Below are positions 1,600-63,900 of a stretch of DNA of 64,000 nt, one piece after another. Numbering within the stretch: position 1 is the first letter of the stretch; the number at the start of each line of letters is the position of its first letter. The position numbers were made by a program, and so were the translations under genes. The notes under the pieces were generated by a model. It saw only the letters and a program-made list of their open reading frames with translations. It did not search any database and was not told where the DNA came from. The DNA is from Atriophallophorus winterbourni (taxonomy: Eukaryota; Platyhelminthes; Trematoda; Plagiorchiida; Microphallidae): positions 1 through 64,000 of the forward strand of contig JACCGJ010011417.1 in the NCBI GenBank assembly GCA_013407085.1, written 5' to 3'.

Positions 1600-3330
1600 A
1601 GCAATAAAGGAATTGCCATGAATATTGTTTTTCTCTGCTCTTCAGGAAAACTGGAATTTGATGTCGTTAGACTGGTTATCAACACGAAATAGACTCTTGT
1701 TACATAAAAAATACAAACGAAGTATAGCCGTTAATCCGGAATTACCTGATATTTCAGATTTGCTAGTCAATAGACGCTCATTATTTCTAAAGTTGCAAAA
1801 AAGTGTAACACGGAAAGAACAATCCGTGTAGTTGTTTGCAATGAGGTTTTGCCGTTAGTAATATGTGTTAAGTTAGTCGGATGGTTCAAAATAATTGATA
1901 TCAACTTTCGACGCTGAAATCACGACTTTCGGCCTGAGTTACCGTCCACCGGTTTAATAATCCTGATTATGCCTTCATGATTAGTCATCCCCATCACATG
2001 AAAAAGCCAGTAACATTTATTAATGTCCAAATCACATGTAATCTTTTTATCAGGTTTTTCATCAACTTTCCTGTGAGCTTGTAGTCAAAGAATAAGATAT
2101 AACTCTCTCCAAATCTATCAAGCAACGATGCTTATCAGATTTATTCGATGTTATCTTACACTGTATCTGATCTGAAGGCCAGACGCGTATATCTCATCAC
2201 TTAGACGAACACACTAATACTCAACGGTCGGGCAGGTCACACAACTCAAATCTGTCAGTCTGACAAAACATTCATGAAGTCTCAATCGCGATCGTTCGAA
2301 CCGTGGGAAGGCGCTAGAAGGCGTGAAACTACATCGGCAACGGTCCTGGTTCCGAACTGGATCTGAGAGCCGATATAGATTGAAAATGAGGTAAAATGAG
2401 TGCGAAACAGGAATCCAATTCTTCTTATGTTGACCGCTTAGCAATTATTTATAATATTTTGATGCACATTTACTGATGAGTAGTAATAGTTATGAGAGTT
2501 TGCGCAAAGATTGTTGACAATATGGCGAGAGGTGATGTGAATATGTAAGTTAGCTATGACAGTAAAACAAGGAATTATGTTACGTTGATCAACTATTGTT
2601 TAAATTTATCTAATTCTCTGATAAAGTTTATTCTCTCTGTAATTGTTAATTTACAATTGACAATCAGCAATTTAGGGATTTGCTTAATACTTTACGCAAT
2701 ATTTTTTTTCGTTTTTTTGCGACTGTGACCCATGGTAAATAATACATGTCCATTGCTATACACGCGCGTCGATCAAAAGTTTTAGCTCAGCATATTAGGT
2801 CGTGTTCAAACCTTTGAAAGCATAGACTGTATGCATTGACGATCATGTAAATCCTCCTTCATGTACCACAAACATGTCCGCAGTTGGCGGTATTGCAGAA
2901 GTTGGAATCAATATTTTGCGGTGAAACAAATAATCGCTTTATATGTACCAATGGATTATAGCCATAAGATATATAGAGTGTGCATTCAAAATTCAATCGA
3001 AATATTTTCTTTGTATGAATTCATGTTGGTTCAATATACAGAGCCATTAAATGAGTGTTCTTTGTTATAAGCAAAGAGACTCGATTTGAAATCGCAAATC
3101 GTGTTAGCTTTCGAAATATCCTATAATAATAAATTCCACAGATAAAAATGCATCCAAATTCAACTTATGAACGCTAAGGAACTGGATAAGTGGATTGATC
3201 ATCATGTCTCAATGCAAATTGACTTCCATAAAATCTCTAAGAGTATGCGTTTCCTTACTCGGAGATTTATAATGCAGGATCATGTCGATCCTTACACTCA
3301 GGTGCGTACAATGGTTTAATTTCAGCATGC
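1600..3330 (+). repeat. dispersed repeat family A, copy 1
   Basis: This block matches 8,480-10,150 in the same orientation and 15,690-17,180 in reverse. Shared landmarks are the stretch beginning GGAATTTGATGTCGTTA (1,660 and 8,525), the stretch around CATTTACTGATGAGTAGT (2,467 and 9,327) and a closing segment around AATTGACTTC (3,216 and 10,068). There is no long ORF; short ORFs here do not match in frame between copies. It is a non-coding repeat of about 1.7 kb of unknown class. Confidence 0.7.
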
Positions 3331-4062
3331 CTATTAAATTTCGATATATAATGTGTTGCCTAAAATCAACTAAGTTCGACTCTTAGTGGTAAATTATGTT
3401 CGAAAGCACACTCAAATTTACCAATGCAAAATTTGATTAATTTTTCACTGTTAAATCTAGATGACTGGTTATAAAAAATTGATGAAATAAAAATAGACTA
3501 TATCTAGTTTCATATCAATGCGTAACAAACATCAGTAGATAAAAATAATAATTTCATCCTAAACAGTCTATTTGATACCATTGGGAATTTCAGATATCAT
3601 AATGTAACTGAACCTAATTTGATGCTATTCTGATATTTTTTAATCAATTGTCAAGAGAAATAAAGTTGGGTTCAAATATCACTGGTACAAATATCAGTAA
3701 TAATAATATTGCAATATTGTGTGTAATGTTTTTGCTAATGCTTTGCGGATGTGGCTACATAACTTAGCTTATAATTTTAAGAGTGAAGTTTAATGTGGCA
3801 TTCGCAGTAGAAGTGCGACCATATACATGATATCAGCTATAAAGATAATTGTAGAAAAATGTTTAGAAAATCTATGGTTTATATATCGATTTCCGACGTT
3901 CTGACGAAGGCCAACGATTTTGTAATCATAAATCAAGTTCAGCAATCTTGATGGTTTAGGCTGCTATGTAAAACTATTTCAAACAAAATGAATAAATAAT
4001 GATTGTAATTATAAACACTAATCCTTATTGGGAAATATTAATTTTTCAGTCTCATTCAAAGT

Positions 4063-4076
4063 CGAATAATTTTAAT
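4063..4076. repeat. left target-site duplication of the hammerhead element
   Basis: CGAATAATTTTAAT occurs exactly here and again at 4,540-4,553, flanking the dimeric element. The pair joins back into uninterrupted family B sequence. A 14-bp exact duplication points to insertion by target-primed reverse transcription or a similar staggered cut. Confidence 0.8.
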
Positions 4077-4110
4077 GTGTTGCTCACATCCCCATCCTTT
4101 ACACACCACT

Positions 4111-4143
4111 ACCGGTTTCAGGCTGTTTTCCATCGTCGGGTGG
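4111..4143 (-). ncRNA. hammerhead-like core, unit 1
   Basis: On the minus strand CCGACGA is followed by a short segment with an AAACA loop and then GAAAC. The first U of CUGA is replaced by C, so this copy is probably inactive. Confidence 0.4.
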
Positions 4144-4351
4144 AGACAGTAAGATCAGGTTCAGTGAGCCTTGAAACAGAGGATTAAAGGTAAACAATGT
4201 TATACTTGTATGCCAACTGTTATATAGGGTTCGTACAACGAACTATGATGTTCAGACACGGAATCACAAAGTGATTCTTGGCCAACCACTCGAGGCGCTT
4301 ATGGATAACCGAAGTGATGTGTTGCTCACATCCCCATCCCTTACACACCAC

Positions 4352-4553: not shown

Positions 4554-7500
4554 TATAACGTTTCTGATGTGGTTGTATCTTTCTCCAAATCTGGATTTTG
4601 TTTACGCGACAACTATCGAAACGCCAACTGATACCAGCGCTCGTCTCATATAGCTTTTGAAAACCAAGTTTATTAACCTATTTGCAGCGTTGTCCTATTT
4701 TACCGGGCAATAGTGGTTCTAATGACAAGATAATGGGCGATGGCGACTGAATGGCGCTTCAAAAGAAGAGTCCTCTCTGTATTTGAAGCTCGTACTATCA
4801 TGAAATCAGCCAACAAATAAAAAGGAAAAAAAATTCTCAAACCTCTACGACTTCGAGGATGTTTGAAGTAACGAAAATGGCTTCAGTTGTCAACCTCGAG
4901 AAACAACCACAAAAAATGGCTAGTTGTCATTCTAGAGCTGTACTTAACTGAGACGAAAGGCCTGTCGAAATTTATCATCCTTGCTTTTTCATCGATGATT
5001 ATGGCGTTGTGGATAGGGAGCGCTCACTGCATGATCAATTGCTAGTAATCCATATTGAACTGCCCTTGATTACATCTCATGGCACCCATTAAGATATACA
5101 CCACCATGCTCAGGGATAATAAAACGGAACGCAGCATATAACAGTTAAAAGCTATGGCTCCGCTTGAGTGAAGCTCAGCGTTATAAGACTGGTTTCGGTG
5201 GTGGATTAGATTTTTTGTACAGACGCCTTCTGCTCAATAAAGGAAGTCCCCAATCAATATTGTACCGTCTCGCCAATTTTAGCGACTTTCAATAACGCAT
5301 CCTAATTATGGATGCACGGAGAAGCAGACTCTGGGAACATTGAACGTCCGGCCCATTAACTCAGAATTTCATGAAAAGGTCTCGAACATGTGAAGTTACT
5401 ACTTCGTGGACTAAACACAGATATGAACACAAACATGGTAATTGACAATGTAATGTGAACTACAATAAACGACATTTTGGTGGGGATCGGTGAATTTTCG
5501 TCGCAAATTTTGCTCGAACATTTGTTAGCAAACGTGATAGATACGATATTATCGGAGATAATCCCGATTCCGGAATTAGGTTTCCGATCTAGTTCCCCAG
5601 TAGAACAAATAGTGATAAATTTTTCAATGCATGGTTAAACTTTATTTTATACGAAGCGTCACGGTTTATTTCAACAAATTTAAAAAATATCCATTCTGGA
5701 TGTCACTATTACATTTTGTGGAAATTCAGTGGGATGCACATAAATGTCTTACAAGAGAGAATGTTCAAATAATTCACAGTCATGATAAACTGGAAAACGC
5801 TTTTTAATACGTGATTTTACTCGACGATGCCTAAGCATATAATAACCATCAGCTACAGTAAAAATGGGTATAGCACATCTGTAAGCTGATAAAAACGAAA
5901 AATAAATTTTCTTAGGTGCACATCGGCATATTCTGGTGAATCATTTGAGTTAACTTTCGGTTGACCACGTTTAATGCTTGCTACTAAACCTTCAGAAACA
6001 TGGTGCTTTTTGTGAACTTGGAAGTGGTACCAGTTTTACAAAACACCGAAAGATGTGCACTCCTCGATGGTGTGTGCAGAAAAACATAATCATATTCACA
6101 CGTTCTTATATTCACACTGAAATTGAATTAAAAATCAATAGTCATATCCACGACGCCAGCGATACTAGTCTTAATATAACCGACATATAGCGTGAACAAT
6201 CAACGAAGAAAGCTAAAAACCTTGTTGAGAATATAATGTTATACACCGTCTATTTTATGCCTGTTAGAATATGAATAAAATTATTATGGATTGTCATTTG
6301 ATCATTCACGATATTCGCCGTAGTTCACAATTGCTCTTGATTTTCTAGTTATGGTAAGGTTTGTTCCTCAAGCGTTCCAATCGATTGAGAGGTTCACTTG
6401 TTTAACATTTTTGGAACCATCGATAAGTGCTGTGTTGACTTTGCTATCAAATCCACGATTAGAAGGATACTGACATGAATCGTGGTACCTGATTGGATTT
6501 GCAATAGGCTTGTGCAAAGTGTCATCTTCAATTTCAAGTATTTTCAGCATAATTGTTCCGGTCTTCTCCTATGCGATACCCGTAATTAGACAGTAATCAT
6601 TCAGTTGATAATATAATACACCGACTAAACATCTTTCTAACAAAAATATATCTCACAAAATCGAGATTTAAATAACATGTTTGGTGTATTTCGGATAATA
6701 GACTGTTTACAATTACGATGCTTGAGCTGGAAAATATAAAAAACGACCAGGTTTATAAAATGTGATTAAGCACAAGAGATATATCGGGCGTTAACGTACA
6801 AACAAAGTTTTCGCATATACCAACTAATGTCGAATGTTTTAGCGCTCCAATAAATGCCCGCAATCATGTGATATTAGCCACTGAGTAGCTTATGATGATT
6901 CGAAATAGCTTCCATTATCACCAACAACACGTACATGTTAACTTGAACCTCGGAATAACTTTATTAATGCAAGCATTGTGGAATCAGAATTGATAATTTT
7001 ACGGAATACTTCTGGACATGACTAAGTATATAGTATTAATTGCGAAAATCAATGTAGCTTTCGCAGTGGAAGATTGACTGTATATATCATATTCACCGTA
7101 AAGCAAATTTGAGAAAAATTTTTATAAGAACCTATGGTTTAGATAGACTAGATAGATTCCGAAGGTTTGACTTCCCCCTTACGAATTCGTAAGCACAAAT
7201 TTAAATAATGTAGGCTTGATCGCATAGGTTGTTACGTAAAACTGCATGATCAAATAACGAGTGTAATTGGAACTCGAATGCCTAATGGGATATATTAATG
7301 TTGCATTCATATTCAAATATCAAATGATTTCAAGGGATAGTTTCTCGTGTCGTTGTACCTTTCTCCATATCTGGATATTGTATACACAACAACTTTCAGA
7401 AACACATAATGATAACAGCTTCAGGTAAAATCGATATGACTATGCGTTAGTTGTCTGCGCGGTTTTACTGACAACTTTTTGTTATCGACAATGTTCTAAT

Positions 7501-13400: not shown

Positions 13401-14170
13401 GACTGACAGGTTCACCATAACTGGTAATGTGTATTTTTATACGATTTACATTATTAGACAGTAATTATTCCCATCATAATATGATACACTGACCGATCCA
13501 CATTTTCACAAACAAGATCTCAAATATCAAGATTTTGATAACATGGTTGGTGCATCTTGGATGATTGACTGTTAACCATTACGATAGTTAATCTAGAAAA
13601 TGTAATTAAAATGATCAAGTTCATAAAATATAATTAAGCACAAGAGATATAGCAGACATTACCGTACCTACCCAAATTTTGGCTAAACCAATACATTGTG
13701 AATGTTTTGAGTCTCAAATAAATATCCACAATCAAGTGATATTAACCACTGAGTAACCCATGAAACTTCGAAATAGCTTCGGTTATCACTAACAGCTAGC
13801 GAATGTTATCTATGAATTCCTAATAAATTAAAGATAGCATTGTGGAATCAGAATGAAGATTAGTTAGTCTCACTTCTTGCCGTTTTGAATCCAATTGGCT
13901 ACGCTTTCGTTGTGATTGTCGTCGCGGTTTCAGGGATAAGCTCTCAATATAAACAAAGCTTTAATATCGCTCGTCTCATATAGCATTTCAAAACAATGTT
14001 CATTAACCTCCTCGCACGCGTTGTCCTGTTTTACTCGGCAATAGTGGTTCTAATGACAAGATAAAGGGCGATGGCGACTAAATGGGGCTCCAAAAAAGAG
14101 TCATTTCTGTATTCAAAGCTCGTACTTTCATGAAGTCAGCAAACAAATAAAAAGCAAAACAAATTAATTC
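10460..14170 (+). repeat. family B array, second location
   Basis: A nearly complete unit (10,460-12,970) is followed by a shorter, more diverged one (12,970-14,170). The segment 10,660-10,910 is almost identical to 5,940-6,190, and 11,880-12,180 to 7,380-7,680, so this pair of copies separated more recently than the others. No conserved ORF. Confidence 0.7.
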
Positions 14171-25083: not shown

Positions 25084-27801
25084 CTACGGTGTGTACCGAC
25101 GAGGTCGTGCCACGGTACGGCCAGTGCGTGTGCGCGGGGTGTCCGTGTCGTCGGTTGTCACCGCTGTCCGTGAATGCAGCGGGGTTTCCATCATGGGTTG
25201 TGTTGCTGGCGTGGACGGGGGTGAAATGCACAAGTCCTCGCGCATCGGCTGCGTATCTGGAGTCGACAAAAAGGGAGACGAGGGAAAAGAAACAAAGGGG
25301 ACTGGCTGTGAAGGGATAGTCACAGTCGTAGGGGATCCTGGGTCTGTATTCGATTTCATGTACGCGGGCTTCAATCGGTCGATGCTGACTGAATCCGGTT
25401 GGCCATTGCGTTCAATGACGAAGTAGTTGGCACTGCGGGAGATGACTTTGAATGGGCCGTCGTATGGTGCTTCAAGGGGCCGTTTTACACGGTCTACGCG
25501 CGTGAATACGTACGGGCACGACAGAAGATAATTGTCGACGTGACTTGTACGAGAAGTTACACGAGTAGGCGGAGCACGTATTTCTCGCATGAAGGCTCGG
25601 AGCCGGGAGACATACGGAGCAGTTTCAATCGCAGTCAGGGGTGTGGAGTCCGTCAGCAGTTCGGCGGGGAGTAGCAGAGTAGTTCCGTAAACCATATCGG
25701 CTGCTGTGCAGCCGATGTCCTCTTTTGCGGTATTGCGGATGCCGAGCAGAACCAGTGGCAGTTTGTCAACCCAGGATGCGCTGGATTCGGTGGCGACGAG
25801 CGCAGCCTTCAATTGACGATGGAATCGTTCAACGAGGCCGTTCGCAGCTGGATGGTAAGCCGTCTTCCGAAAATGTTCGCATCCCAGTAGACGATTCAGT
25901 TCTGCGAAGAGGTGGGACGTGAACTGGGCTCCGCGGTCTGTTGTGATTTGGGACGGGACACCGTAATTCGCGATCCAACCAGAGACGAAGGTGCGAGCTA
26001 CGGTTTCCGCAGATGTATCCACTAGTGGGCACGCTTGGGGCCAGCGTGTGAATCTATCGATGCACGTCAAAAGATGAGTGCACCCACGGGATGAGGGTAA
26101 TGGTCCGACAAGATCAATATGTACATGCCGAAAGCGTCCATCTGGAAGTGGGAATTTTCCAGGGATAGAGCGGGTATGGCGATGTACCTTACTGCGTTGG
26201 CAGGCAAGACACTGTTGTGCCCAACAACGAATGTCGTTTCGCATGCCATGCCAAACATAGCGGTCTGTGATGAGTTTTGTGGTTGCGCGTTTGCTCGGGT
26301 GGGATATTCCGTGCAGGTGCTCAAAAATCCGTCGTCTGTAATCCTTTGGTACAAAGGGACGTGGATTTCCTGTCGATGTATCACAATGAATACGTATTCG
26401 ACTGCCTGGCACTGGTAAGAGAGCAAACTGCAGGGAAGCTTCGGAAGTGATTTTTGAAAATTCCGGGTCGTCTTCTTGCAGGGCGGCGATTTCCTCTAAG
26501 TCAATCTTCGCGATCTGGGAAATAGATGCGCGTGACAGAGCATCTGCCTCGACGTTGCTGGGTCCCTCGATGTACCTTAAGTCAGTGGTGAACTGCGCGA
26601 GGTAGTCCAAGTGGCGAGTTTCTCGAGGCGAGTAGCGGTCGGCGGCAGCGCTGAAGGCGTGGATCAAAGGCTTGTGGTCCGTGAAGATGGTGAATTGACG
26701 TCCTTCCAGGATGTGTCGAAAGTGCTTTACTGCGAGGTACATCACAAGTAATTCTCGGCTGAAGGTAGAATACCTGGTTTGAGCCGGTTGCAGCTTTCGT
26801 GAAAAGAAGGAGAGTGGTGCGCACTCATCGTCATGGACTTGTTGTAGAACGGCACCAACAGCAACTTGAGAAGCGTCTGTTTTGAGCACGAGCTTCACTC
26901 TGCTGTCTGTGGAGAGATGAGCCAGCGAAGTGAGCGTGATGAGAGATGCTTTGACTGATTGGAAAGCGGCGATAGCTTCCGTTGTCATGTTGAACTTCTT
27001 TGGATTTCCCCGCAAAAGATCAGTTAACGGTCTGCATTTGTCCGCGCATTTTGGTATGAATCTGCCGTAGAAGTTAATGAATCCGAGGAATCGACGTAGC
27101 TGGCGAAGAGACGTTGGAGGTGGGTAGTCTTCAATCGCCGATATTTTCTGCGGAATGGCAGTGATTCCACGAGAATCGATTGTGTGTCCAAGAATTTCTA
27201 GGGCTGGTCGGCCGAATTGGCATTTGGCCGGGTTGATTACGACGTTGTATTCCTGAAGACGTTGGAAAACCAGTCGAAGGTGATCCATATTCTGCTCGTG
27301 GCTTTCACTAGCGACAAGAATATCATCGATGTACGTGAAGGTGAATGGTAGACCTCGCATGACTTGATCGATGAAGCGCTGGAAAGTTTGAGCGGCGTTT
27401 CTGAGTCCAAACGGCATGCGAAGAAATTCGTAGAGACCGAAAGGTGTAGTGACAGCAGTCTTCGGAACGTCGACGTCTGCTACTGGGATTTGATGATAGG
27501 CGCGCACAAGGTCGATTTTGGAAAAAATCTTCTTGCCGCAGGCGCTCAGGGATAAATCCTGGATGTGAGGTATGGGATACCTATCAGGCACTGTGAGCTT
27601 GTTGAGGCCTCTGTAGTCACCACATGGTCTCCAGTCGCCTGATTTTTTTAAAACCATATGTAGAGGCGATGACCATGGGCTATTAGAGGGTCTAATTATC
27701 CCAAGTTGTAGCAGTTGCTCGAACTCCGCTTTGGCAGCGGTGAGCTTGTCAGGGGACAATCGTCGCGGTCTTGCGTTCGTCGGCGGGCCGGTCGTGAACA
27801 A
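25084..27801 (-). CDS. pol: Ty3/gypsy Pol polyprotein (RT-RNase H-integrase), 5'-truncated
   Basis: 905 open codons. In order: reverse transcriptase starting at [13 protein letters not shown] with catalytic YIDD (in [11 protein letters not shown]) and LPFTF just before it; RNase H with [22 protein letters not shown] and FTDHKPL; integrase with an HHCC zinc finger (HLHGISH ... CLACQRSK) and DDE residues in [17 protein letters not shown] and [11 protein letters not shown]; a GPF-type motif (APYDGPFKV); a Pro/Thr-rich tail. Protease and gag are absent: homology begins abruptly near 27,797 and an in-frame stop lies about 50 bases upstream. No stop or frameshift lies inside, so it is a recent but 5'-deleted insertion. 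GC-richer than its surroundings. Not infectious material; an ordinary worm retrotransposon. Confidence 0.93.
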
Positions 27802-28756
27802 GTTATTAGAAAAATTATGGTCGAATTTATCTCCTTGGTATTATGCTCATTTTAACAAACGTTTCTCTGTGTATTTCAAACACTTGTAAGAATTTTAACT
27901 TCGGGTAATTTTCTGATAATTCTTTGACATTATATTCAATGAGAAATAATTTGAATCGTCTCAAAGAGTGGTTAAACAATTTGGTTGATAAAAACAAGGT
28001 TTTTTCTTTCAAAGTTTTTTTTTTTGTAAATTATCCATTTCAATTTATTTTGATATATATATATATATGCGCGTAAGAAAAAAATTGAAAGCAAAGTAGT
28101 ACGTTGTAAAATAGCGCAATTCACATTCAATAGATATGCAAGACTTTAATCTGCCTAAACTATATAACCGAGTAGATCATCCACCCCGACCTCTAGACTA
28201 TAAAATTTGGGAACTGTTCGATTACAATCATCGAATAATCATGTTTTTACAATAAACTTCAAAACGAAATTTACAACAGACATCTGATGTAGAGGTAGTC
28301 TTACACTTGAAGCCACAACAGTTGAATATTTTTAATACCATTCTTCACTATGTAGAAGGTAAATTCACGTTCAGTTGTTTTATTACGTGTAAAACAAACA
28401 AAACTAAATAGAACAGTGGATTACATTATTTTACTGGCGTCCAATTGACATAATATAAATGGGAGTTATCCGGACTCGCATAGCAGTAACCGTACATATA
28501 AAATCACCAAAATGTTCCATTTCAATTCTTCCAACGTCATAAAACTTAAGAGAAATGATCTCAATATTAGAACTCGCTTTTTCACTCTCAAATTGTTTAT
28601 AATGCAAAATTAGGCATATGCTACTCATGAGGTAAGAAAAACAGGATCGGCTTGCACAATATTTCGCAAATTGATTAATCTCATCCGAAAGTATAAACAA
28701 TATCATCAGATTCAACTAGCAGTAAGAATGTTGGAAAATCCCAAATTATTTTATTT
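27802..28756. other. spacer with microsatellite and a weak exon candidate
   Basis: AT-rich. An (AT) repeat lies at 28,053-28,068. On the minus strand 28,434-28,590 reads like a possible last exon (FYDVGRIEMEHFGDFICTVT, ending SIGRQ and a stop), but its acceptor is poor, so I do not call it separately. Confidence 0.4.
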
Positions 28757-29154
28757 TATTTCGTTTCGAAGGGTGAATCGTTCCAACGAGAATTCCTAGA
28801 TACGAATTTGGAGCTGAATCTGGTGCAGAATGTGAACGATCCTACGTGGAAATGCGTCGGGCAAGTTCCTTCGATATTGGATTTGGTGGTCACACCTAGA
28901 TTCTCTGATGTTACGAATCTGTCTATTGAGACCCCCATTGGTTGCAGCGATCACTGTTCTTTATGGTTCGTTTGGAATCGGGGTCTTCAACCGAGAATAC
29001 GTACGCATGCCCGGAGAAAATACTGGAAATTAGACACAACGTGTCTAATCATGTCTGTAAACTCGATGGACTGGTCACTCCCTCTATCAACGAATGTTGA
29101 TATCTGTTGTTTGGACTTTTTGGGTAAAATAAGATCGCTTGAAAATTATTGTAA
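28757..29154 (+). pseudogene. CR1-like LINE A, end of endonuclease domain (5' fragment)
   Basis: One open frame reads REFLDTN, NVNDPTWKCVGQVPSILDLV and IGCSDHCSLWFVW. These match the final third of the APE-type endonuclease of CR1/jockey-like LINEs (S-I-L-D-L-V and G-C-S-D-H-C). It is truncated on the left and interrupted on the right by the gag-only LTR element. The remainder of the same ORF2 resumes at 30,776. Confidence 0.75.
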
Positions 29155-29159
29155 TGAAT

Positions 29160-29358
29160 TGTATTGTATTGAATTGAATAATCAGCCCAAGAATGTAAGT
29201 GAGAACAACCGCGCTCACTTGAATCACAGTATGTATTGAATAACAACCAGAATGGATGAATGACAATCACAACTTGAATAATAGTACTATTGATTATTGT
29301 TAAATGAATGGTGATGAATGATTGATTATTATCGATCGTTAATCGAACAATCACCACA
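29160..29358 (-). repeat. 3' LTR of the gag-only element
   Basis: Aligns with 30,586-30,774, with about ten substitutions and one gap of about ten bases by eye. Termini TGT...ACA on the minus strand. Confidence 0.8.
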
Positions 29359-29364
29359 ACAACC

Positions 29365-30552
29365 TCAGTTTGCGAATGATCCTGGGTTTGTATAATCCCA
29401 GTACGGCTTGTTCAACAAACGTTCTGATCTCCACGGGGGTTCCAGCGAACCCGACACATCATCCACATTTACCAACAATTGTATAGCTTTTTCGAAGGCA
29501 GTAGTCCAAGGTGCCAGTGAGGCTTTTTCTCTAGCGGTTTTGAAAAGAATATTATCTGACGATCGTTTGGATGAGCTAAAAGGCAGAGGTGAATTCGCTT
29601 GATAAGATGAGTTTGGTGATTTATTCGAAATGGTATCTGATGAATTCTGAAGTTTGCAAACATTGAAGCCACTTTCTTGGTAATGAAAACTAGATTTTCC
29701 GTTTGAAACAATGATACGGGCGGATTTGGACATGTTACCAGGAGTATCGCTTGAATCGGTTGATAGGGAAGTCAAATTTTCATCATCAAATAAAAGAGCT
29801 TTAGCACGAAAAATGGCACTGTTAGAAATCGGTCGAATTGTTTTTCCAGATGCAGTTTGATTATCCAGAATAACGGGAGTGTTCTCCATACTATGATAGG
29901 ATGTATGAACGTCAACGTTTCCTTTTTCGCCAAGCGGCATAGTTAAGGTATCATCATCATTTGTCTGCATCAGAGCCTTGGCTTTTTCACGTTTATGTGT
30001 GTTGAACATGATGGAATTTTCTGCTGGCGACAAATCTGTTTTTGCCACACGCGTATGTTCATAATGTTCGCAGTGAGCTCGAACATCTTTAAAAGAGGGT
30101 TTTGGCAGCTTCAAGAGTTCATTCTGTAGAATACTGTCATGTATTCCAGCGATTATACGATCTTTCAATTGCATATCTAACGACTCACCTAAGTTCCATT
30201 TCGCTGCCTGAATTAGCAATTGTAGAATAAAATCACGAATTCCTTGTTTGGGCTGACGCACCATGGAATGAAATTTTGCACTTCCGGTTGGCTCGAAATG
30301 TACAGATTCCACGTTTCGCATCAAAAGCGTCTTCAACGTTTCGTATGGAAGAGAAATAATAGAATAAGGATAGGCTAAATTCTTTATTAACGCATATTCA
30401 GATTTTCCAACTGCATTTAGAAAATGAACCGATTTTTTATCATTCTCAGATTTCGGTCGTGTCATACACCAAATTTCGAATCTTTCACAATAGTCTTCTA
30501 TTTCTCGAGCATTTGAATTTATATCGAGAGGTTCTAGACCTGAATTTGCCAT
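29365..30552 (-). CDS. Gag fused to BRCA2 BRC-like repeats
   Basis: 395 codons. Residues 1-170 are a Ty3-type Gag capsid region (FEIWCMTRPKSENDKK, LIKNLAYPYS, Y-E-T-L-K-T-L-L, HFEPTGSAKFHSM, F-I-L-Q-L, L-K-D-R-I-I-A-G-I). There is no zinc knuckle. Downstream, three segments resemble the BRC motif F-x-T-A-S-G-K-...-S-x-x-x-L-x-K-A-K-x-L-F that binds RAD51 in BRCA2: a shrunken one at 183-197 (FNT, then KAKALM), the clearest at 233-257 (TASGKTIRPISNSAIFRAKA and LLFDD) and a diverged one at 337-361 (FKTAREK, then AFEKAIQLL). The Ser-rich spacers look like BRCA2 linker. I infer capture of part of a host BRCA2-like transcript. The ORF has no stops. The Gag call is firm; the BRC call is likely but rests on short motifs. 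Confidence 0.75.
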   Translation of the reverse strand: MANSGLEPLDINSNAREIEDYCERFEIWCMTRPKSENDKKSVHFLNAVGKSEYALIKNLAYPYSIISLPYETLKTLLMRNVESVHFEPTGSAKFHSMVRQPKQGIRDFILQLLIQAAKWNLGESLDMQLKDRIIAGIHDSILQNELLKLPKPSFKDVRAHCEHYEHTRVAKTDLSPAENSIMFNTHKREKAKALMQTNDDDTLTMPLGEKGNVDVHTSYHSMENTPVILDNQTASGKTIRPISNSAIFRAKALLFDDENLTSLSTDSSDTPGNMSKSARIIVSNGKSSFHYQESGFNVCKLQNSSDTISNKSPNSSYQANSPLPFSSSKRSSDNILFKTAREKASLAPWTTAFEKAIQLLVNVDDVSGSLEPPWRSERLLNKPYWDYTNPGSFAN

Positions 30553-30560
30553 GAGGAAAT

Positions 30561-30573
30561 GATCGCGACGCCA
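30561..30573 (-). other. candidate primer-binding site
   Basis: TGGCGTCGCGATC on the minus strand, 12 bases after the 5' LTR. It begins TGG, as expected for pairing with a tRNA 3' CCA end. The tRNA was not identified. Confidence 0.35.
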
Positions 30574-30585
30574 AATTTAATGAAA

Positions 30586-30774
30586 TGTATTGTGTTGAAT
30601 TGAATAATCAGCCCAAGAATGTAAGTGAGAACAAACCCGCTCACTCGAATCACAGTATGTATTGAATAACAACCAGAATGAATGAATGACAATCAGAACT
30701 TGAATAATACTACTATTGAGTATTGTTGAATGATTGATTGATTATTATTGATCGTTATTCGAACAATCACCACA
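30586..30774 (-). repeat. 5' LTR of the gag-only element
   Basis: Direct repeat of 29,160-29,358. On the minus strand this is the upstream LTR and precedes the Gag-BRC ORF. Confidence 0.8.
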
Positions 30775-30775
30775 A

Positions 30776-32110
30776 TCATGACCCATGGATGAATGGAAGA
30801 TCTCCCGCTAAGGGACCGCCGTGGTTTGATAACGTTATCCGTGAATACATGAAGGTAAGAAATCGGTTATGGCGGAAGTTTTGTTCTAGTGGATGCACCG
30901 ATGACTATGTAACCTACAAAGTTATCCGCAACAAGTGCACCTATCTCAAAAGAGAAGAAAGGCAGAACTATGAAACTCGCTCGGTGGACGAAGCCAACTG
31001 GACGCCGAAACGCTTGTTTGCGTACATAAGAAGTAGAACGAAAGCTTCTTAACGAGTACCTTGCTTAAGATCTATGGGAGGTTCGACTGAACATGAAGAT
31101 GAACGTAAAGCAGTTCTTCTCGCCGCTCAGTACAATTTGGATTACACAGAGGAGACGTTTCCCATTCCTCTGCTTCATGAGAGCAACGCCGAAATGCCGG
31201 ATATCTCGATCTCGCCAGAGATGGTGCAGTATTTGCTAGAACGACTCAATGTACACTCAGCACCTGGCCCGGACGATATACACCCGATGCTTTTAAAGGT
31301 ATTGTCGAGTATCATACATAAACCACTGGCGCTAATCTTTAATTTATCCCTGAGGTATGGTAGGTTACCTGAAGATTGGAAGTATGGCATTGTCAAACCT
31401 ATGTATAAGGCCGGTGAAACCAGTGATCCGGCTAACTACCGACCGGTTACCCTCACTTCGGTAGTTGTGAAGACTCTGGAACGACTGCTGAAGAAACAGA
31501 TTAAAGATTTTCTTCTTACAACCAGTCAGTTAACATCTGCTCAACATGGTTTTACGACAAGACGATCATGCTCATCCAATCTCATCACTCCTCGCGAGCA
31601 CTGGTGTGCTGAACTTGATCTGGGTCACCCGGTAGTCACTGCCTTCATTGACTCCAGTAAGGCTTTTAACCGTGTTCCATTTCAACGTCTATTGCTCAAG
31701 CTCCGTGCTCGTGGTGTGAAGGGACCTGTTCTAACGTGGATTGAAGACTTCCTTGTCGACCGTTATACACAGGTCGAGGTTAACGGAGTCAAATCGCAGG
31801 TTACACGTCCAACTTCCATGGTTCCGCAAGGATCTGTTCTCAGCCCGTTACTTTTTAAAGTATATGTTGATGACCTCCCAGACTCATTAATTAAGAATTG
31901 TCTACTTTTCGCGGATGATCTGAAAGTTTGGGGTACAGTATGCTCTTCTGCTGATAATACCATTTTCCAAAACGAATTGAACAGATTGCCTGTAATCACG
32001 GCGAAGCTGAACAACACTGGACAGGATTTCTTCAACTGAGTTTCTTCTGGACTACGTTGCTGATATAAATAGATGCGGCTTACACGGGCTTGACCCCCTG
32101 TTGTCTATCA
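30776..32110 (+). pseudogene. CR1-like LINE A, reverse transcriptase (3' fragment)
   Basis: Continues the ORF2 interrupted at 29,154: PPWFDNVIREYMKVRNRLWR linker, then RT blocks SAPGPDDIHP, LPEDWKYGIVKPMYKAG, ANYRPVTL, FIDSSKAFNRVP, VPQGSVLSPLLF and the catalytic LLFADDLKVW. One TAA at 31,050-31,052 interrupts an otherwise continuous frame to a stop at 32,039. Motif A keeps its first Asp but has Asn where a second Asp is usual. The thumb and C-terminal part is shortened. The copy ends in an (AAG) run near 32,105. Confidence 0.85.
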
Positions 32111-33389: not shown

Positions 33390-34814
33390 TAAGTTTAGTC
33401 GCAAAATGTAGCCAAGATTTCGAAATAGTGATATTCTGCACTAGTGAAAATCTGTCGGGCGAATGAGGGATCTATCTTGAACGCCACAGAACCCCGGGTG
33501 ATTATAATGTTTTATTTAGAATATTACCCACCACTTTAGCGATAAAAATTGTATAAAGGCTTCAGTTATTGCAAAATCAGTTGAATTTTAAGTTGTTTAA
33601 GCCGAATATGATTGATTGCGAGCTGGTGATTCATATGGTGATTGTTGTTCACATACCAAGTAGAGTATTTTGGTTCGAACTCGGGAGATAATTATATAAT
33701 CGATGGGTTTTAGCACTCATAAAGACGACTAACGTTTGTTTAAATCAGTGCATCACGAATAAAACAAAGGTGGAACTCAAAAACAATTTTGCAGGCGTGA
33801 AATGAGTAGTCTGGTATTGAACATATTTCAACCTACAATTTAGTACATGAGGTATTCTACCATCAAATACACCTAAATTTAATAATATAAGGACTCAAGA
33901 CACACAGCCATTATTTGCCCTCACAAATAGGCGAAACTGCGGCAGCATCACTGTCCAAAATATTTATTCCGTCACGAGTTTTCTCTGTAGCATATTGGAA
34001 ATTATGTCGCTAACCAGTGAATCTAATTTTAAATGTAGCAGCTGTCAAGGTATATAAGTTGTTTTTGGCCACAGTTTGCAAACAATTTATTAGTATATCT
34101 GTTATGCACACGCAGGTGAAGATCAAGTTTACCTAAATATAACGATTCTGAAACCTATGGTATGTTTGGAATTTTTAATCGTACATACAATTTTATAGAT
34201 TGAAATATGAACTAGGGTTTTTTTTAGAAATTTTTATTCCATTTTTAACAAATTTCTTGGAATTGACCTTGACTAACCGGTGTTATTTATTGAATTCGCT
34301 TCATTTTCTTTACGCAGTTAGGCATTGAACAATATTTTTGAAACTATTCATCTATTTCAAATATTTTTTCCCGTTGGAACAGACATTCATAAAATCTCCA
34401 TGAGAAAACATTGTCTTATTGTCTTATTTATTACAAGCGCTCCTTGTCTTATTTCCGTTATAATCTTTTTCGTTCCTAGAATTATACTTCTCGCCAGGAC
34501 TGACATGTCATGTAACCACCTTTCCCAAAGATGGCCGAGCGAACGTTTGAGCAAAATATTGGGGAAAGCAATTATTTTTGTATGGTGTCGCATACCACGA
34601 GCTTTATGATTATGTATGTATCCTTTCCTATGCATATTACGTACAATATTTCAGTGAACAGCTGTTATATTTTGTACCATAAATATTGAATAATGAGTCG
34701 TGAGCTCTGTTAGCTAATTACAATGTTTTATGCTACAGCAAACAAATAGAACCTAGATCCTAAGTATTTTTGAGGAAAATGTTTTCTGGATTGAACACAT
34801 GAAACACATGTTTG
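33390..34814. other. no gene recognised
   Basis: A 94-codon hydrophobic ORF at 34,325-34,609 overlaps an 82-codon ORF on the other strand and has no recognisable pattern. I treat both as chance. Confidence 0.35.
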
Positions 34815-34905
34815 TTATGTTTGTCTGGTTTGCAAGGCCAAATCAACACCGTCAGCCTCGGCGACGAAAACCCCCGAATATGTTATTGAGACGCGTCTAA
34901 ATGGA

Positions 34906-35943
34906 ATGGAATCCAGTATTCAAAAACTGAGTGATCTGATAATAAACGTCATAAAGACTCCGTCGTTACCCGACTTAGAGGTTACTGCCGAAGAGCCGGT
35001 AGATAATCCATCATACTCGAGCAGGCCAACATTTGCCCAGATAACCGCACAGATGGTGACTAAAACGGGGAGGCGTTCGTTGGGATCAGTGACTCCTCGA
35101 CTTAACAGAAAAGAAAAAGGACTCAACGAAACCACTGCTTCTAAAACGACTGACTCACATTATAAAACAAAATCTACGGGTGTAAACCTTAGCGTTATAT
35201 GTAATAACGTGACAGAGTCGCAGGAAACGCTGTTTGAAGCTAAGCAAAAACATGACTTAGCTGAGTGGTATAAACTCTGCAGTCTGATGAGCATGGCCGC
35301 AGTTACTCCTTCATCAGTAGTTCGATTAAACCGCCACCTGAATTCTCCTCACAAGGATGATCCTCGCCTTTTAAGAATAACGCTGCAATCTGCGGAGGAC
35401 GTGGAAAACGTACTCTTAAATGCTTACATTCTTAGAGGTGTTCCAGAGACTACATGTCGTATCCATGCAGACTTACCATGGTGGGAGCGAAAGTCGTCGC
35501 AGAAATCTCGTGGAGAATGTAATCCGAGAAGTATTGTAATTCTAGGTGTTCCGGAAGATGCTGCTGACGTACCTTCTCAAGAAAAGTCTGAGCACGACCA
35601 CAAACAATGGAAATATCTAGCCGAAACAATTGGTATTAAACATGCCATACTTGTGGATGCTTCTAGGATACCGCGGTCTTCCAACTATAAAGGGCAAGGT
35701 CCTAGTTCTATAAAGCTAACCTTCTTCACAACCGAAATGACGGATACTATCAAACGTGAATGGAAAGCTAATAGAAAAAACCTACCACAAAACGTCATGT
35801 TGAGCTTGCCCAAGGTAATAGCCGGAAGCAAGTTAACGGATGGTACTGACCCACAAACGCCTAGTGATGAGGTTCAACCTGAATGTCACGCGATAGCTCC
35901 AAAAAACTTGAGTATTCCGACTCTAACCGAGTCGGCCCTCTAA
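34906..35943 (+). CDS. LINE B ORF1 protein
   Basis: 345 codons without interruption. Charged and Ser/Thr-rich N-terminus (RPTFAQITAQMVTKTGRRS); the middle has short sequence blocks (DDPRLLRITLQSAEDVENVL, PRSIVILGVPEDAADVPSQE) that look like the RNA-recognition fold found in LINE ORF1 proteins. In CR1-like elements ORF1 binds the element RNA. Its end overlaps ORF2 by about 60 bases in another frame. The first ATG may not be the true start, because the frame is open upstream. Confidence 0.8.
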   Translation: MESSIQKLSDLIINVIKTPSLPDLEVTAEEPVDNPSYSSRPTFAQITAQMVTKTGRRSLGSVTPRLNRKEKGLNETTASKTTDSHYKTKSTGVNLSVICNNVTESQETLFEAKQKHDLAEWYKLCSLMSMAAVTPSSVVRLNRHLNSPHKDDPRLLRITLQSAEDVENVLLNAYILRGVPETTCRIHADLPWWERKSSQKSRGECNPRSIVILGVPEDAADVPSQEKSEHDHKQWKYLAETIGIKHAILVDASRIPRSSNYKGQGPSSIKLTFFTTEMTDTIKREWKANRKNLPQNVMLSLPKVIAGSKLTDGTDPQTPSDEVQPECHAIAPKNLSIPTLTESAL

Positions 35944-38760
35944 TAACTTTTCATGATTTGAACACCACGAACTTTATAAGATGTTTATATACAAATGCAC
36001 AAAGCCTTCCGAACAAATTAGCTGAGCTAACCGAGATATGTTCGCGCTACTCACCTGACATTATCGCCATTACAGAAACATGGTATTCTTCCCAATTGAT
36101 TGAATCGGAGATATCAATTCCAAATATGAATTTGATAAGGAACGATCGAGAGAGATGCGGTGGTGGTGTTGCTCTTTATTACCATAATAGACTCCAGTGC
36201 CATCCAATAGACAAGACAGAATTCACGCTCGAGGATACAATTTGGTGCACTTTAACACTGATGTCAGGTGAAGTCTGCATTATTGGTGTGGTCTACCGGC
36301 CCCCTTCATCTACGGAATCGTACAACGAAAGGTTGATCCAAGTGCTTCAGCGCTTGACTCGCACACAGCAAGCAACGACACTTATTATGGGTGATTTTAA
36401 TCTGTCCACCCTTTATCTCAGGGACGATCACTCCCCACAAACACCAGAATACCGATTTAGAGAGGTACTAGATTCAATCCCGTTATACAACCATGTTCAC
36501 GAATGCACCCGGAGGAGAGGTTCTGACCGCCCCTCTGTCTTGGATTTGGTGTTAACGTCGGAGGAACAATCTATCGAAGCGATCGAATTCCAGGCTCCAC
36601 TGGGTCTTAGCGACCATTCAGTGCTTATGTTCGACTATGTTTGCAGTACTCAGCAATCGCTTACTCCGAATGGGGTGGTTCGACGGGTAGATAAATTGGC
36701 CCTGAGTAAATCGCTCGTGCAGATTCCGCACTTTCAGACGGACAATATAACCCCTGACTCGCAATGGAACGAGCTTGTAGGTTTTCTGAAAATGAAGATA
36801 GACGAGAACTCGCAGATCGTTCAGAAAAGATGCGTCGATGAACTTTGTTTTGTTGTCCGCAGCAGAACAAAAAAGTGGATAGCACTGAAGCGAGCAGCGT
36901 GGGTGCGGCATAAAGCCAACACTACTTCTACTTCTTGGCAACATTTTCGTATGTTACGCAACAAAGTGACTGCGCTTATTCGAGAGGATGAGTAAGCGCA
37001 CCAATTGATGCTCCTGTCGAAAATGGAACGCAACCCAAAGTTATTATACAAAATCGTGAACGCGAAATCAAAAGTCAAACCAGGTATTTTTCCCATCCAG
37101 AATGGCGAAAAACTAACTGAAACAGCGTTAGAGACCGCTAATGCTCTGGCAATTTACTATTCTAAGGTGTTCGTGCCAAAGGTTTTAGTGGAACGTTCTG
37201 AGTATTCAATTGAAACAGGAATCGAAACGTTGTGCGATATTTCGATAAATCCAATGAGTGTTGCAAGTCATTTGCTCAAACTAAAAGTAAGAAAATCCCC
37301 AGGAGCGGATGGCATCACACCGGATGTGCTCAGGTTCTGTCACCGTCAGCTTTGTGAACCGCTCTTCAGCCTGTTTAACTATTCGTTGCTTAAGGGAGTT
37401 GTACCGAAAGATTGGAAGACTGGCGTGATAACACCTATCTTCAAAGGCGGTTGCCGATCTGACGCTGCAAATTATCGTCCCGTCACACCTTTACCTGTTA
37501 TTGCTAAACTTATGGAACGTATCGTCTCGGAAAGAATAGTTGCACACTTTGAATCGCATAATTTGTTTTCGACAGTACATCATGGATTTCGATCACACCG
37601 ATCTTGTCTCACAAATCTTCTCATAGCATTAGACGACTGGACGAAGGTGTTGGATAGAAGTTCTTTTATCCACGTCTGTTACCTAGACATTTCGAAAGCT
37701 TTTGACGGAGTCAATCATCATCTGCTTCTTCAAAAACTGATGCGATCAGGAATAAGTGAACCACTCATCTCATGGTTGTGCGACTATCTGTCAGATCGCG
37801 ACGTCAGAGTTAAAGTTAACGGAGCGCTATCCCAAACGTTCAAAACCACCAGTGGAGTCCCACAAGGATCTGTGCTAGGCTCACTCCTCTTTCTGTTGTA
37901 CATAAATGATTTACCCCCCTCATATCGTCCAAAATGGTCCTGTTCGTGGATGATATGAAAATTTAGACGCCAATAAGTTCTGCAGAGGACTGTGAGAAAC
38001 TGCAAACGGATTTGGACAGCGTGTCGAATTGGGCGGCCATGAATGACATGTCATTCAACATACAGAAATGTAAGATGATCCATCTTGGCAAGAATGTTCC
38101 TTGGACATATCGATTGGGAAGTGAAATCCTAGCATGGAGCTCGTTAGAAAAAGATCTTGGAGTGTGGATTAGCGGGAACCTGAAGAGCACAGCGCACTGT
38201 GAGAACATATATCGACGAGCAAACAGATTGCTAGGTATTTTTCGAAGAATATTTGGAAGATTCTCTCTGGTAACGTTACCAGGGATAATAAATGTCTACC
38301 TTCGCCATACGATGGAGTATGCGGTAGAGGTGTGGGCTCCTCGGCTGCGAAAGGATATTGCTCTCTATCTATCTCTATCTATCACAGAGCAACAAAGTTA
38401 GTGATGGGTCTTCGCAATGTTCCGTACACCGAAAGATTACGACGTCTGGGTCTATGCGATTTTACCCAAAGGAGGATACGACGCGATATTATTCTGACTT
38501 ATAGAATTGTGTCTACCGAAGGACATCCACTAAAACACTTGCTTGATGTATGTGATGGAAAAATAACACGCGGACATACCTTATCCCTTTACGTCCCAAG
38601 TTCCCGTATTGACTGTCGGCGCCATTTTTTCGCCATACGTGCTATATTTCTTTGGAATTCCCTACCCCAAAATGTGGTGGACTCTCCTTGCCTGGCGGCG
38701 TTTAAAGTGAAATTGGACTTACATATGCAAAAGAATAACATTCGTGAGCCTTACATTTGA
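35883..38760 (+). pseudogene. LINE B ORF2 (endonuclease-reverse transcriptase), lightly damaged
   Basis: APE endonuclease: CLYTNAQSLPNK, DIIAITETW, GGGVALYYH, VVYRPPSS, MGDFNLS, LDLVLTS, LGLSDHSVL. RT: KSPGADGITP, DWKTGVITPIFKGG, YRPVTPLP, FRSHRSCLTNL, YLDISKAFDGV, GVPQGSVLGSLLF, FVDD (37,943-37,954) and the C-terminal region to NNIREPYI. Lesions: TAA at 36,993-36,995 (frame resumes directly), a frameshift near the C run at about 37,913, TAG at 37,964-37,966, and a frameshift in a TCTA tract at about 38,357-38,385. All catalytic motifs are still readable. LINE ORF2 nicks target DNA and copies its RNA at the nick. Confidence 0.9.
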
Positions 38761-60999: not shown

Positions 61000-63900
61000 T
61001 CCATGATCGCTAATTTGCGTAGCCTGTATACGTTTTCACATTGATTACAGTGGAACATTCATAGAAAATGTGTATGCTCTTGTAATCATCGATGCATGCT
61101 AAACATGCCAAGAAGTAACAATAACTCATATCAATTTTGATTCCACAATGATAACTTTATCCATTTAACAGGGAGTTATAGTTAATATAAACAAGCTGCG
61201 AGTGTTAATCAAAGCCACTTCGAAGCTGCATGTGTTATTCAGTTGTTACTATCACTGGATTGCGGAGATTTGTTTGTGCGTCAAAACATTAACAATAAAA
61301 ATGATTAGAAGAAAATTGTGTAGATACCTTGAAGTCTGATATATGTCTTGTTCTTGGTTACATTTTTATCAACTTGATCGTTTTATTGACAATTTCTAGC
61401 TTCAATATCAAACAGTCAAACAATCAAAAACAACGAACCGTGTTTTCAAAATCTTGATATCTGATATCTAGTTTGTGGATTGGTCAGTTTATCATATTAT
61501 CATGGGTATGATGACTGTCTAAGTACGTGCATCGTCTAAGAAAATACCTCAACAATTATGGTGGAAAATACTTGAAATAAATACGACAGGTTGCACACGC
61601 TAATTGCAAATCAAACCATTAAACATGATTCATGTCAATTGCCTTGTGATTGGGATTCTATAGCACTCACGACGCAACAACTATCGATTCTTTCTAGCAA
61701 ACTGAAACAAGACAACCTGTCAGGCGAACGAAACGTTTGAGGAATAAACCTATTGATAATTAGCAAATCGCGGGCAACAGTGAACTACGGCAGATAAGGT
61801 GAAGTGCAAATGTCGCCCCATAATATTAGTATTCATATTCTCATCGTTACCAAATCGTTAGTGCATAACATTGTTCTCAAATGGTTTTTTTCACTTTTTT
61901 ATTTGTTCTTTCTTTTTTCTTTTATTCTTCTTTCTTTCTTTTCTTCATGCCATATGCTTAGTTGTATCGCTGGCTTTGTGGCTATGACTATTGATTTTTC
62001 ATGAAAACCCTATATGAATATGATTAATGTTTCTGCACTGACCTTAGATGTGTGCACATCTTCGTTGTTTGGTAAAACTGCTATCGACTTGAGGTTCACA
62101 CGATGCACCGTGTTTCTGAAAGTTCACTAACATGCACTTCACGGTTCACTAAAAGGTTAACCGAAATGATTCACCTGAATATGCCGATGAGTACCTATGA
62201 AAATTGATATTTCGTTTTTTTTCAGATTATAGTTATAATAAAACCAAAGGCAATAAACCAAGTAATGGTCATAGCTTGTGTGGTCCACAAGAAAGTAACT
62301 TCACATATTAGAGACATATTCTTGAAATACAGAAAGCACGGAATGGACGTTCCAAGTTCCGAGTTTCAGAGCTCAACTTTGGTATTCATCAACTGTATTA
62401 TTGTTGTACAGATCTAAGTCTGCTTGTCCGTTTATCCCGAATTAGCCTGCGCAAAAAGACTATAGCTGAACGTGGCGAGACAGCAACTTATTCATTCGGG
62501 ATTACTTGCTTGAGGCAGACGGTAGCTGTAAAATGAGACGTGAAAATCGAATCTACGGTTAAAAGCAGACCCGTGGCGCTGAGGTATACTTCAGTGAATC
62601 CAGAGCTTTCAACTAGTATATGCTGCGTACCGTGTTATTATTCGTAAGCAAGATGATATACATCTCATGGTGTGCCACATTAATAAAGTTATTCCGAAGT
62701 TCAAGTTAACATGTACCTGTTGTTGGTGATAATGGAAGCTAATTCGAATCATCATCCTATATCTCTTGTGCTTAATCACATTTCATGAGCCTAGTCGTTT
62801 TTTGACATTATTCAGCTTGAGCATCGTAATTATAAACAGTCAAGCATCCGAAATACACCAACCATGTTATCCGAATGATGGTTTTCTGATATATACTATA
62901 GAATGTTGGCCAGTCGGTGTATTATATTATCAACTGAATGATAACTGTCTAATTACGGGTATCGTATAGGAGAAGACCGGAACAATTATTTTGAAAATAC
63001 GTGAAATTGAAATGACACTTTGCACAAGCCTATTGCAAATCCAATCAGGTACCACGATTCATGTCAGTATCCTTCTTATCATGGATTTAAAAGCAACCTC
63101 AACACAGCGCTTATCATTGCTTTCAAAAAACTTAAACAAATTAACCTGTTAGGCGAACGGAACTCTCGGGGAACAAATCTATTCAAAACTAGAAAATCAA
63201 GAGCAATTGTGAACTACGGCGGATGTGGGATATGTTCAAATGAAAATCCATAATACTGTTTTCCATATTCGAAACGACATCAAATAGCTGTTGTATAACA
63301 TAATAATATTAACAATGATTTACGCTTTTTTCGTTGAATGTTCACGCTATATGTCGGTCATATTAAGACTAGTATCGCTGGCACCGTGAATGTGACCATC
63401 GATTATTAATTCAATTTCAGTGTGAATATAAACAAGTGTGATTATAATTATGTTTTTCTGCACACACCATCGAGGAGTGCACATCTTTCGGTGTTTTGTA
63501 AATCTGGTATCACTTTCAAGTTCACAAAAAGCACCATGTTTCTAGAGGTTCAGTTACACGCATCCAACGTGGTCAACCAAAAGTTAACTGAAATGATTCA
63601 CCAGATTATGCCGATGTGCAACTAAGAAAAGTTACTTTTCGTTTTTTTTAGGGCAACAGAAGTGTTTTAACCATTTTAACTGTAGATGATGTTTATTATA
63701 TGCATATGCGTCGTCCACTTAAATCATGTATTAAAACACGTTTACTAATTTATCATTATTGCGGATTATTTGAACATTAGCACTTGTAATGCATCTATAT
63801 GCATCCAACTGAATTTCACAAATAGGTAATAGTGATATTCAGAATGGATATTTTTTTGAATTTGTTGAAATAAACCGTGACGCCTCGTATAAAATAAATA

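Follow-up and report, generated by a model that had tools for sequence, protein, structure and literature searches.

A non-autonomous LTR retrotransposon of a trematode joins Gag in frame to a segment of the host BRCA2 gene

Introduction

Acute transforming retroviruses carry Gag fused in frame to captured cellular sequence, are defective and need a helper. For LTR retrotransposons the capture of cellular genes is, to our knowledge, best documented in plants. The maize LTR retroelement Bs1 carries cellular gene fragments and is an early case in which a retrotransposon took up host DNA; a title cited in the same review mentions a hybrid open reading frame (PMC13317346). In taeniid cestodes, TRIM elements have been assigned a candidate partner, lennie, by the match of LTR ends, primer site and length of the target-site duplication (PMC4558846). 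Rad51 pathway genes change the transposition of Tf1 and Ty1, in a direction that differs by assay (PMC5741268).

Here we describe a multicopy LTR element in a 64,000-nucleotide stretch of the Atriophallophorus winterbourni genome (contig JACCGJ010011417.1, positions 1 to 64,000; hereafter the window), in which Gag is joined in frame to a segment of the host BRCA2 gene. A transducing element of the Bs1 type is marked by an ORF that continues in frame into part of a cellular gene and by its presence in many copies, and both traits were found here. Bs1, however, comes from a plant and carries pieces of genes for an ATPase, a xylan endohydrolase and a glucanase, whereas the window element holds part of a single DNA-repair gene. 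The TR-GAG elements of plants have LTRs, a primer site and one Gag ORF without pol in common with the window element, which falls within that gag-only group, defined by LTRs and a Gag ORF in the absence of pol; the definition is not known to cover a fusion of Gag to captured cellular sequence such as our element has. Bs1 is of low copy number, against at least 105 genomic matches and an identified pol-bearing partner for the window element. Compared with the acute transforming retroviruses, no envelope was seen in the window element, and its captured gene acts in recombination and not in growth signalling. The taeniid TRIMs resemble it in being small non-autonomous LTR elements with a candidate partner and differ in having no coding sequence where the window element encodes a Gag fusion (PMC4558846). 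Membership of the TRIM class itself (short, without coding sequence) was ruled out by the 395-aa protein. Bs1 already shows that an LTR retroelement can capture host genes; a case carrying BRCA2 or a BRC segment was not found among the papers listed in the literature searched, a collection from which most subscription papers are absent.

Results and discussion

A multicopy LTR element without pol

The element spans positions 29150-30774 of the window on the minus strand (Table 1). Its two LTRs, 199 and 209 bp long, share 88.9% identity across 208 aligned bases, and the element is flanked by a 5-bp target duplication that reads ATGAT/ATAAT in element orientation, with one mismatch. We searched the genome (537,331,230 bases in 15,840 contigs) with the ORF and obtained 2294 first-look candidates and at least 105 scored matches, 62 of the 105 without a stop as counted from the match table. 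Direct repeats flank the ORF in all of 30 copies, the aligned part being only 31 and 59 bases in L003 and L009, and both expected LTR ends were located in 28. With the best taken among several possible LTR ends, 20 of the 30 copies had a perfect 5-bp target duplication and four, the window copy included, had one with a single mismatch; four copies had three or more mismatches, and the LTR ends were not found in two. Identity between the aligned parts of the two LTRs ranged, in the 30 best-scoring copies, from 88.9% in the window copy to 100% in L030.

The sequence adjoining the 5' LTR is a putative primer-binding site. The site is conserved, and many other copies and the pol-bearing partner have TTTGGCGTCGCGAGC at this place. 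A tRNA scan of the window and an Rfam search at gathering thresholds were both empty.

The initial annotation had described two LTR-like direct repeats around one 395-codon ORF without pol, and had proposed looking for further copies with the same LTRs. The description was borne out, no pol lying between the repeats, and the copies found elsewhere in the genome share the LTR ends and the target duplications. The window element is a non-autonomous LTR retrotransposon: protease, reverse transcriptase and RNase H are absent, and integrase is reduced to a tail of about 21 residues.

Table 1. Features of the element, in window positions
Feature	Position	Strand	Remark
Target-site duplication, left copy	29145..29149	.	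ATTAT (+ strand); one mismatch to right copy
3' LTR	29150..29358	-	TGTGGTG...CATTACA; edges placed by comparing copies
Single ORF, 395 codons plus stop	29365..30552	-	Gag - BRCA2 segment - integrase tail
Integrase C-terminal tail, RSERLLNKPYWDYTNPGSFAN	29368..29431	-	derived from the partner integrase C-terminus
Captured BRCA2 segment, residues ~189-374	29432..29987	-	480/568 identical to C1431:74219-74786
BRC-like repeat b, residues 337-362, FKTAREKASLAPWTTAFEKAIQLLVN	29467..29544	-	FKTA present
BRC repeat a, residues 231-258, NQTASGKTIRPISNSAIFRAKALLFDDE	29779..29862	-	FxxA Phe replaced
Gag, residues 1-188	29989..30552	-	identity to Gag of the pol-bearing partner
Putative primer-binding site adjoining 5' LTR	30561..30575	-	TTTGGCGTCGCGATC in the window
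5' LTR	30576..30774	-	direct repeat; edges set by comparison with other copies
Target-site duplication, right copy	30775..30779	.	ATCAT (+ strand)

The ORF is a three-part chimera

The ORF (codons at 29368-30552, stop at 29365-29367) consists of Gag, a segment of host BRCA2 and the C-terminus of the integrase of a pol-bearing partner element. The whole protein was of little help in searches: a protein database search gave 1755 candidates, none at E≤10, a sequence search of the PDB gave a best E of only 0.68, and AlphaFold gave a poor model (mean pLDDT 32.9).

The partner was reached from the ORF tail by way of a chimeric copy, L052, and the integrase that L052 holds in frame. In Pfam this integrase piece matched rve_3, the integrase core (E 2.5e-6, 27.6 bits, cut-off 26.5). 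At least 24 places in the genome, its own among them, match the piece in full length at 95-100% identity, besides many weaker matches. One partner, on C5932, has an open frame of 1292 aa with integrase at its end, and from the length of this frame we infer that its pol is whole. The partner sequence covered comprises the 5' LTR and the first ~340 codons, in two pieces, L064 with the LTR and primer site and L065 with Gag. Its LTR is 76-81% identical to those of the window copy and 89-91% to those of L030; the start is identical to that of the element and the end near-identical. Downstream of the partner Gag lie cysteine-rich knuckles (Pfam zf-CCHC E 0.02, below cut-off) and, by eye, a protease motif. 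The integrase match and this reading by eye suggest that the partner is of Ty3 type. A CRIPT match in the partner (E 0.0099, below cut-off) was taken for chance.

Gag of the window copy and of the partner (L065) are 82% identical in protein over residues 1-192 and 89.6% identical in DNA over 588 bp; for the young copy L030 the DNA identity is 94.3% over 601 bp. This identity stops at the junction where the element leaves Gag. The first 170 residues had been annotated as Ty3-type Gag, which was right, and identity to the partner extends Gag to about residue 188. Profiles had been proposed as a check at the same time: Pfam found no Gag match in the window protein, and Retrotrans_gag matched the partner weakly (E 0.04, below cut-off). 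The assignment is carried by the partner, a pol-bearing element with a homologous Gag. That the BRC segment might be native to the partner Gag was rejected for the one partner read, in which Gag runs into the zinc-knuckle-like sequence.

At the other end, the last ~21 residues of the element equal the C-terminus of the partner integrase, and the DNA is 93.3% identical over 282 bp that include the 3' LTR. A translated search of 50 copies (L001-L050) found the integrase tail in 44, the exceptions being L033-L038. Its absence from these six looks wrong, since by eye the tail is present in another frame beside BRCA2 sequence.

The middle segment derives from the host BRCA2 gene

PF00634, run against the whole genome, returned 102 rows at E≤10, and one 538-aa open frame on C1431 accounts for two of them. 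We read 931 bases of C1431, and this stretch holds two BRC repeats (41.5 bits, E 8.9e-11). BRCA-2_helical, which has a single match in the genome (C1431:77735-77941, E 8.6e-7, 36.8 bits), falls ~3 kb downstream on the same strand. Because two BRC repeats and the sole helical match occur together in one orientation, we took C1431 for the host BRCA2 gene. Nucleotides 566-1121 of the ORF are collinear with the C1431 open frame, 84.5% of the aligned positions (Table 1) being identical, with 12 gap positions. The captured stretch begins within one BRC repeat, holds the next repeat whole and includes a third BRC-like repeat. As the segment lies within one open frame, both an mRNA and a DNA donor are allowed; the donor might also be another copy of the BRCA2 gene region, there being 11 further BRC loci over the cut-off.

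The initial annotation had supposed that the element captured part of a host BRCA2-like gene and kept it open, and had suggested locating the host locus and aligning the C-terminal half of the protein to it. The locus was found through its BRC repeats and helical domain, and the collinear identity shows the capture. None of the outcomes that the annotation had named as refuting it came about: BRC hits were obtained, although the window copy alone stays below the cut-off, the host gene is similar, and the repeats are LTRs in other copies. A chance or convergent resemblance to BRC motifs, which we regard as having practically no probability, might have appealed to a single-copy Pfam score below cut-off, to repeats a and b that are not significantly alike, and to an ORF that clearly beats shuffled sequences only against some human BRC repeats; the identity to the host gene at 480 of 568 positions refutes it.

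BRC repeats and the RAD51-contact motif

By itself the window copy scored 16.5 bits against PF00634 (E 0.0057; 18.3 bits in the genome search), below the cut-off of 20.3. Of 22 copies scanned, 18 matched the profile, with a best E of 1.6e-4. The copy on C14987 reached 21.1 bits together with its in-frame neighbours, and L068 reached 28.7 bits as a fragment and 18.2, below cut-off, as a single stretch in the genome search. For the earlier claim that these segments fit the BRC motif, what decides is the DNA identity to host BRCA2, which lies far beyond chance. Its FKTA segment (repeat b) was rightly called BRC-type: alignment to the host shows it to be BRCA2-derived, yet it stays below the Pfam cut-off even in the host (16.6 bits). 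Repeats a and b were no more alike than shuffles, and their resemblance was dropped as independent evidence for BRC. When the ORF was compared with human BRC repeats, the score for BRC4 was reached by 0-2 of 200 shuffles and that for BRC2 by 15-76 of 200.

Like the BRC repeats of BRCA2, those of the element have a TASGK core and a helix part, collinear with the host repeats. In contrast to BRCA2, repeat a is without the FxxA Phe, and the 395-aa protein has no helical or OB domain. The Phe was absent in all 54 copies in which the residue was read, being replaced by Ile, Asn or (in L052) Asp, while the host keeps it (GFQTASGK). In repeat b, FKTA was invariant in the 22 aligned copies; among 20 older copies the Phe was missing in two, FITA was present in two and the motif was out of frame in one. 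These motifs faintly suggest that RAD51 binding is possible, mainly via repeat b.

Outside C1431, eleven BRC loci over the cut-off have open frames of 77-272 aa: C6117:48624 (the highest, 27.3 bits), C15326:20024, C7964:8766, C15088:8994, C11926:1876, C13646:6360, C12479:4012, C4495:162104, C4098:11804, C13208:17389 and C13375:954. They might be other copies of the element, perhaps with the Phe intact, or copies or fragments of the BRCA2 gene.

Sub-forms and recombinants

The element exists in several forms. Six older copies (L033-L038) extend further into BRCA2, reading CVQSIQPADTEQASDEHATN against CVPSIQSAVTVQASDEQATN in the host, and a subgroup (L019, L021 and L027) is missing four residues from the helix part of repeat a. 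L068 (C5579:213700-214460), part of an open frame of 762 aa, has repeat a, repeat b and a longer BRCA2 end, followed by the integrase tail and LTR. With the host and L052 left out, open frames of at least 500 aa occur at 20 of the 102 PF00634 loci; these BRC-bearing frames, at L068 and 19 further loci, are 505-816 aa long and exceed the window ORF, and may hold more BRCA2 repeats.

L052 (positions 2628-4253, on C11277) is a recombinant in which the element ORF is joined in frame to the partner integrase, as would be expected from co-packaging and template switching. A decayed Gag relic at L052:5620-6020 (+), ~57% identical in its first 44 residues, represents an older lineage of the same Gag. 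On C9367:13820-14865 (-), judged by positions only, a BRC match immediately precedes an integrase match in the same orientation. On C1283 an integrase match (34830-35306, -) with an 850-aa frame and a BRC match (37805-37873, -) are 2.5 kb apart, possibly a pol-bearing element that also holds a BRC segment. Whole or partial copies adjoin head to tail at C2908:8178-10778 (L020, L060) and at L034, L037 and L040, a pattern that cDNA recombination or unequal exchange could produce.

Proposed origin and mobilisation

We consider it very probable that a non-autonomous element of Ty3 type was born when a template switch into BRCA2 made the fusion, and that it has been moved in trans by its partner. 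Reverse transcription in the particle of a pol-bearing relative would have switched from element RNA to host BRCA2 and on to the end of integrase. Nucleocapsid, protease, reverse transcriptase, RNase H and most of integrase would thereby have been exchanged for the BRCA2 segment with the frame kept. The product would be a Gag-BRCA2 fusion protein in which the BRCA2 part forms a C-terminal extension of Gag at the place of the nucleocapsid. Such a fusion would assemble with partner Gag-Pol, whose enzymes would copy and integrate the element in trans. The LTR ends and primer site of the element resemble those of the partner. The pieces and the insertions are read directly from the genome; the switch, translation of the fusion, mobilisation in trans and any role of the segment are what we infer from them.

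Selection on the segment

Pairwise dN/dS among 22 aligned copies was 0.35 in Gag and 0.66 in residues 171-395, and amounted to 1.31 in repeat a, 0.74 in repeat b and 0.24 in residues 365-395. When only variants present in at least three copies were considered, Gag had a per-site N/S ratio of 0.15 and repeat a one of 1.42, on small counts. Comparison of older with younger sub-forms gave a dN/dS of 0.43 in Gag and 0.93 in the BRCA2 segment. A Gag value of 1.67 between two groups of older copies indicates that those copies are decaying. Host BRCA2 and the element segment compared at 0.45-0.93. By these ratios the BRCA2 segment is less constrained than Gag.

In a sample of 50 copies (the 30 best-scoring and 20 hand-picked from the rest), the segment was free of stops in 41 and Gag plus segment in 36, frameshifts not counted. 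Variation at 20 hand-chosen key positions of the BRC repeats was 0.060, compared with 0.098 at random segment sites, a deficit that 4.7% of 5000 draws reached. Among seven position sets only these pooled keys fell below 5% (repeat b 5.9%, FKTA 10%, TASGK 18%, repeat a 26%), and the non-key sites of both repeats varied more than average. Taken together, the stop-free segments and the slight deficit at BRC keys hint at some selection and argue against a pure passenger.

The private changes of the window copy relative to 21 others (6 synonymous, 25 nonsynonymous, per-site ratio 1.19) look neutral-like, with no sign of constraint. About 5% of random changes create a stop, so that ~1.5 would be expected per 31 changes and the finding of none is unsurprising.

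What the BRCA2 segment may do

Overall we favour the BRCA2 segment as a weakly constrained extension or spacer, RNA filler included, and judge this likelier than an active RAD51 binder. That the stretch is nothing but RNA or length filler, serving the packaging or spacing of nucleic acid with its protein sequence irrelevant, is a plausible reading to which we give rather less than an even chance. The segment is near-neutral between sub-forms in which Gag is constrained, and the end of the ORF (residues 365-395) is conserved, as such a reading would have it; pure filler in an active lineage, however, should gather stops and frameshifts, and most sampled segments are stop-free. The same open segments, with Gag also free of stops in most sampled copies, fit a tentative alternative, raised in the initial annotation as recruitment of RAD51 to cDNA or capsid, in which a Gag-BRC protein binds RAD51, bringing it to, or keeping it from, cDNA or particles, and so aids integration, protection of cDNA or recombination. 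Invariance of FKTA in the aligned copies, the lower variation at the pooled BRC keys and retention of the segment in at least three sub-forms point the same way. The head-to-tail copies on C2908 could stem from cDNA recombination, and Rad51 pathway genes affect Tf1 and Ty1 transposition (PMC5741268). Against RAD51 binding stand the lack of the repeat-a Phe in every copy read at that residue and the high dN/dS of that repeat, the subgroup without four of its residues, the host-element ratio, the fact that a single pooled set among seven fell below 5%, and the imperfect FKTA of older copies. Somewhat doubtful, too, is a fuller version, by which the lineage swapped its nucleocapsid for host BRC repeats and Gag-BRC would bind RAD51 on cDNA or in particles, protecting the cDNA or steering it to recombination. 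If a RAD51-binding Gag-BRC did exist, its binding would have been tuned to repeat b as repeat a lost its Phe.

The initial annotation had also offered that the LTR pair now encloses a co-opted gene, which would be a single host locus with a domesticated Gag-BRCA2. The window ORF is open despite 11% divergence between its LTRs, which would suit co-option, but the number of genomic matches and the neutral-like private changes of this copy speak against it, and we consider it very improbable.

One genome here supplies a named recipient element, its pol-bearing partner, the donor gene and a later recombinant (L052). The element carries that part of BRCA2 which binds RAD51 in the host gene's known role, and manipulation of homologous recombination by a mobile element through host-derived parts becomes a testable question. 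Annotations of BRC repeats in such a genome may be copies of the element, as only two of the 102 PF00634 rows lie in the C1431 BRCA2 frame.

Surroundings of the element in the window

By eye, the element sits inside a non-LTR element, with reverse-transcriptase-like and endonuclease-like frames on either side. A 918-aa frame at 25084-27840 (-) looks, again by eye, like another Ty3-type pol from reverse transcriptase to integrase, and no adjoining Gag frame was noticed. Integrase-like relics at 13461-13793 (-), 61201-61432 (+) and 6476-6934 (-) are 28-62% identical to pieces of the partner integrase. Three adjoining long frames at 34795-37958 (+) look by eye like a non-LTR element, with endonuclease in the second and reverse transcriptase in the third.
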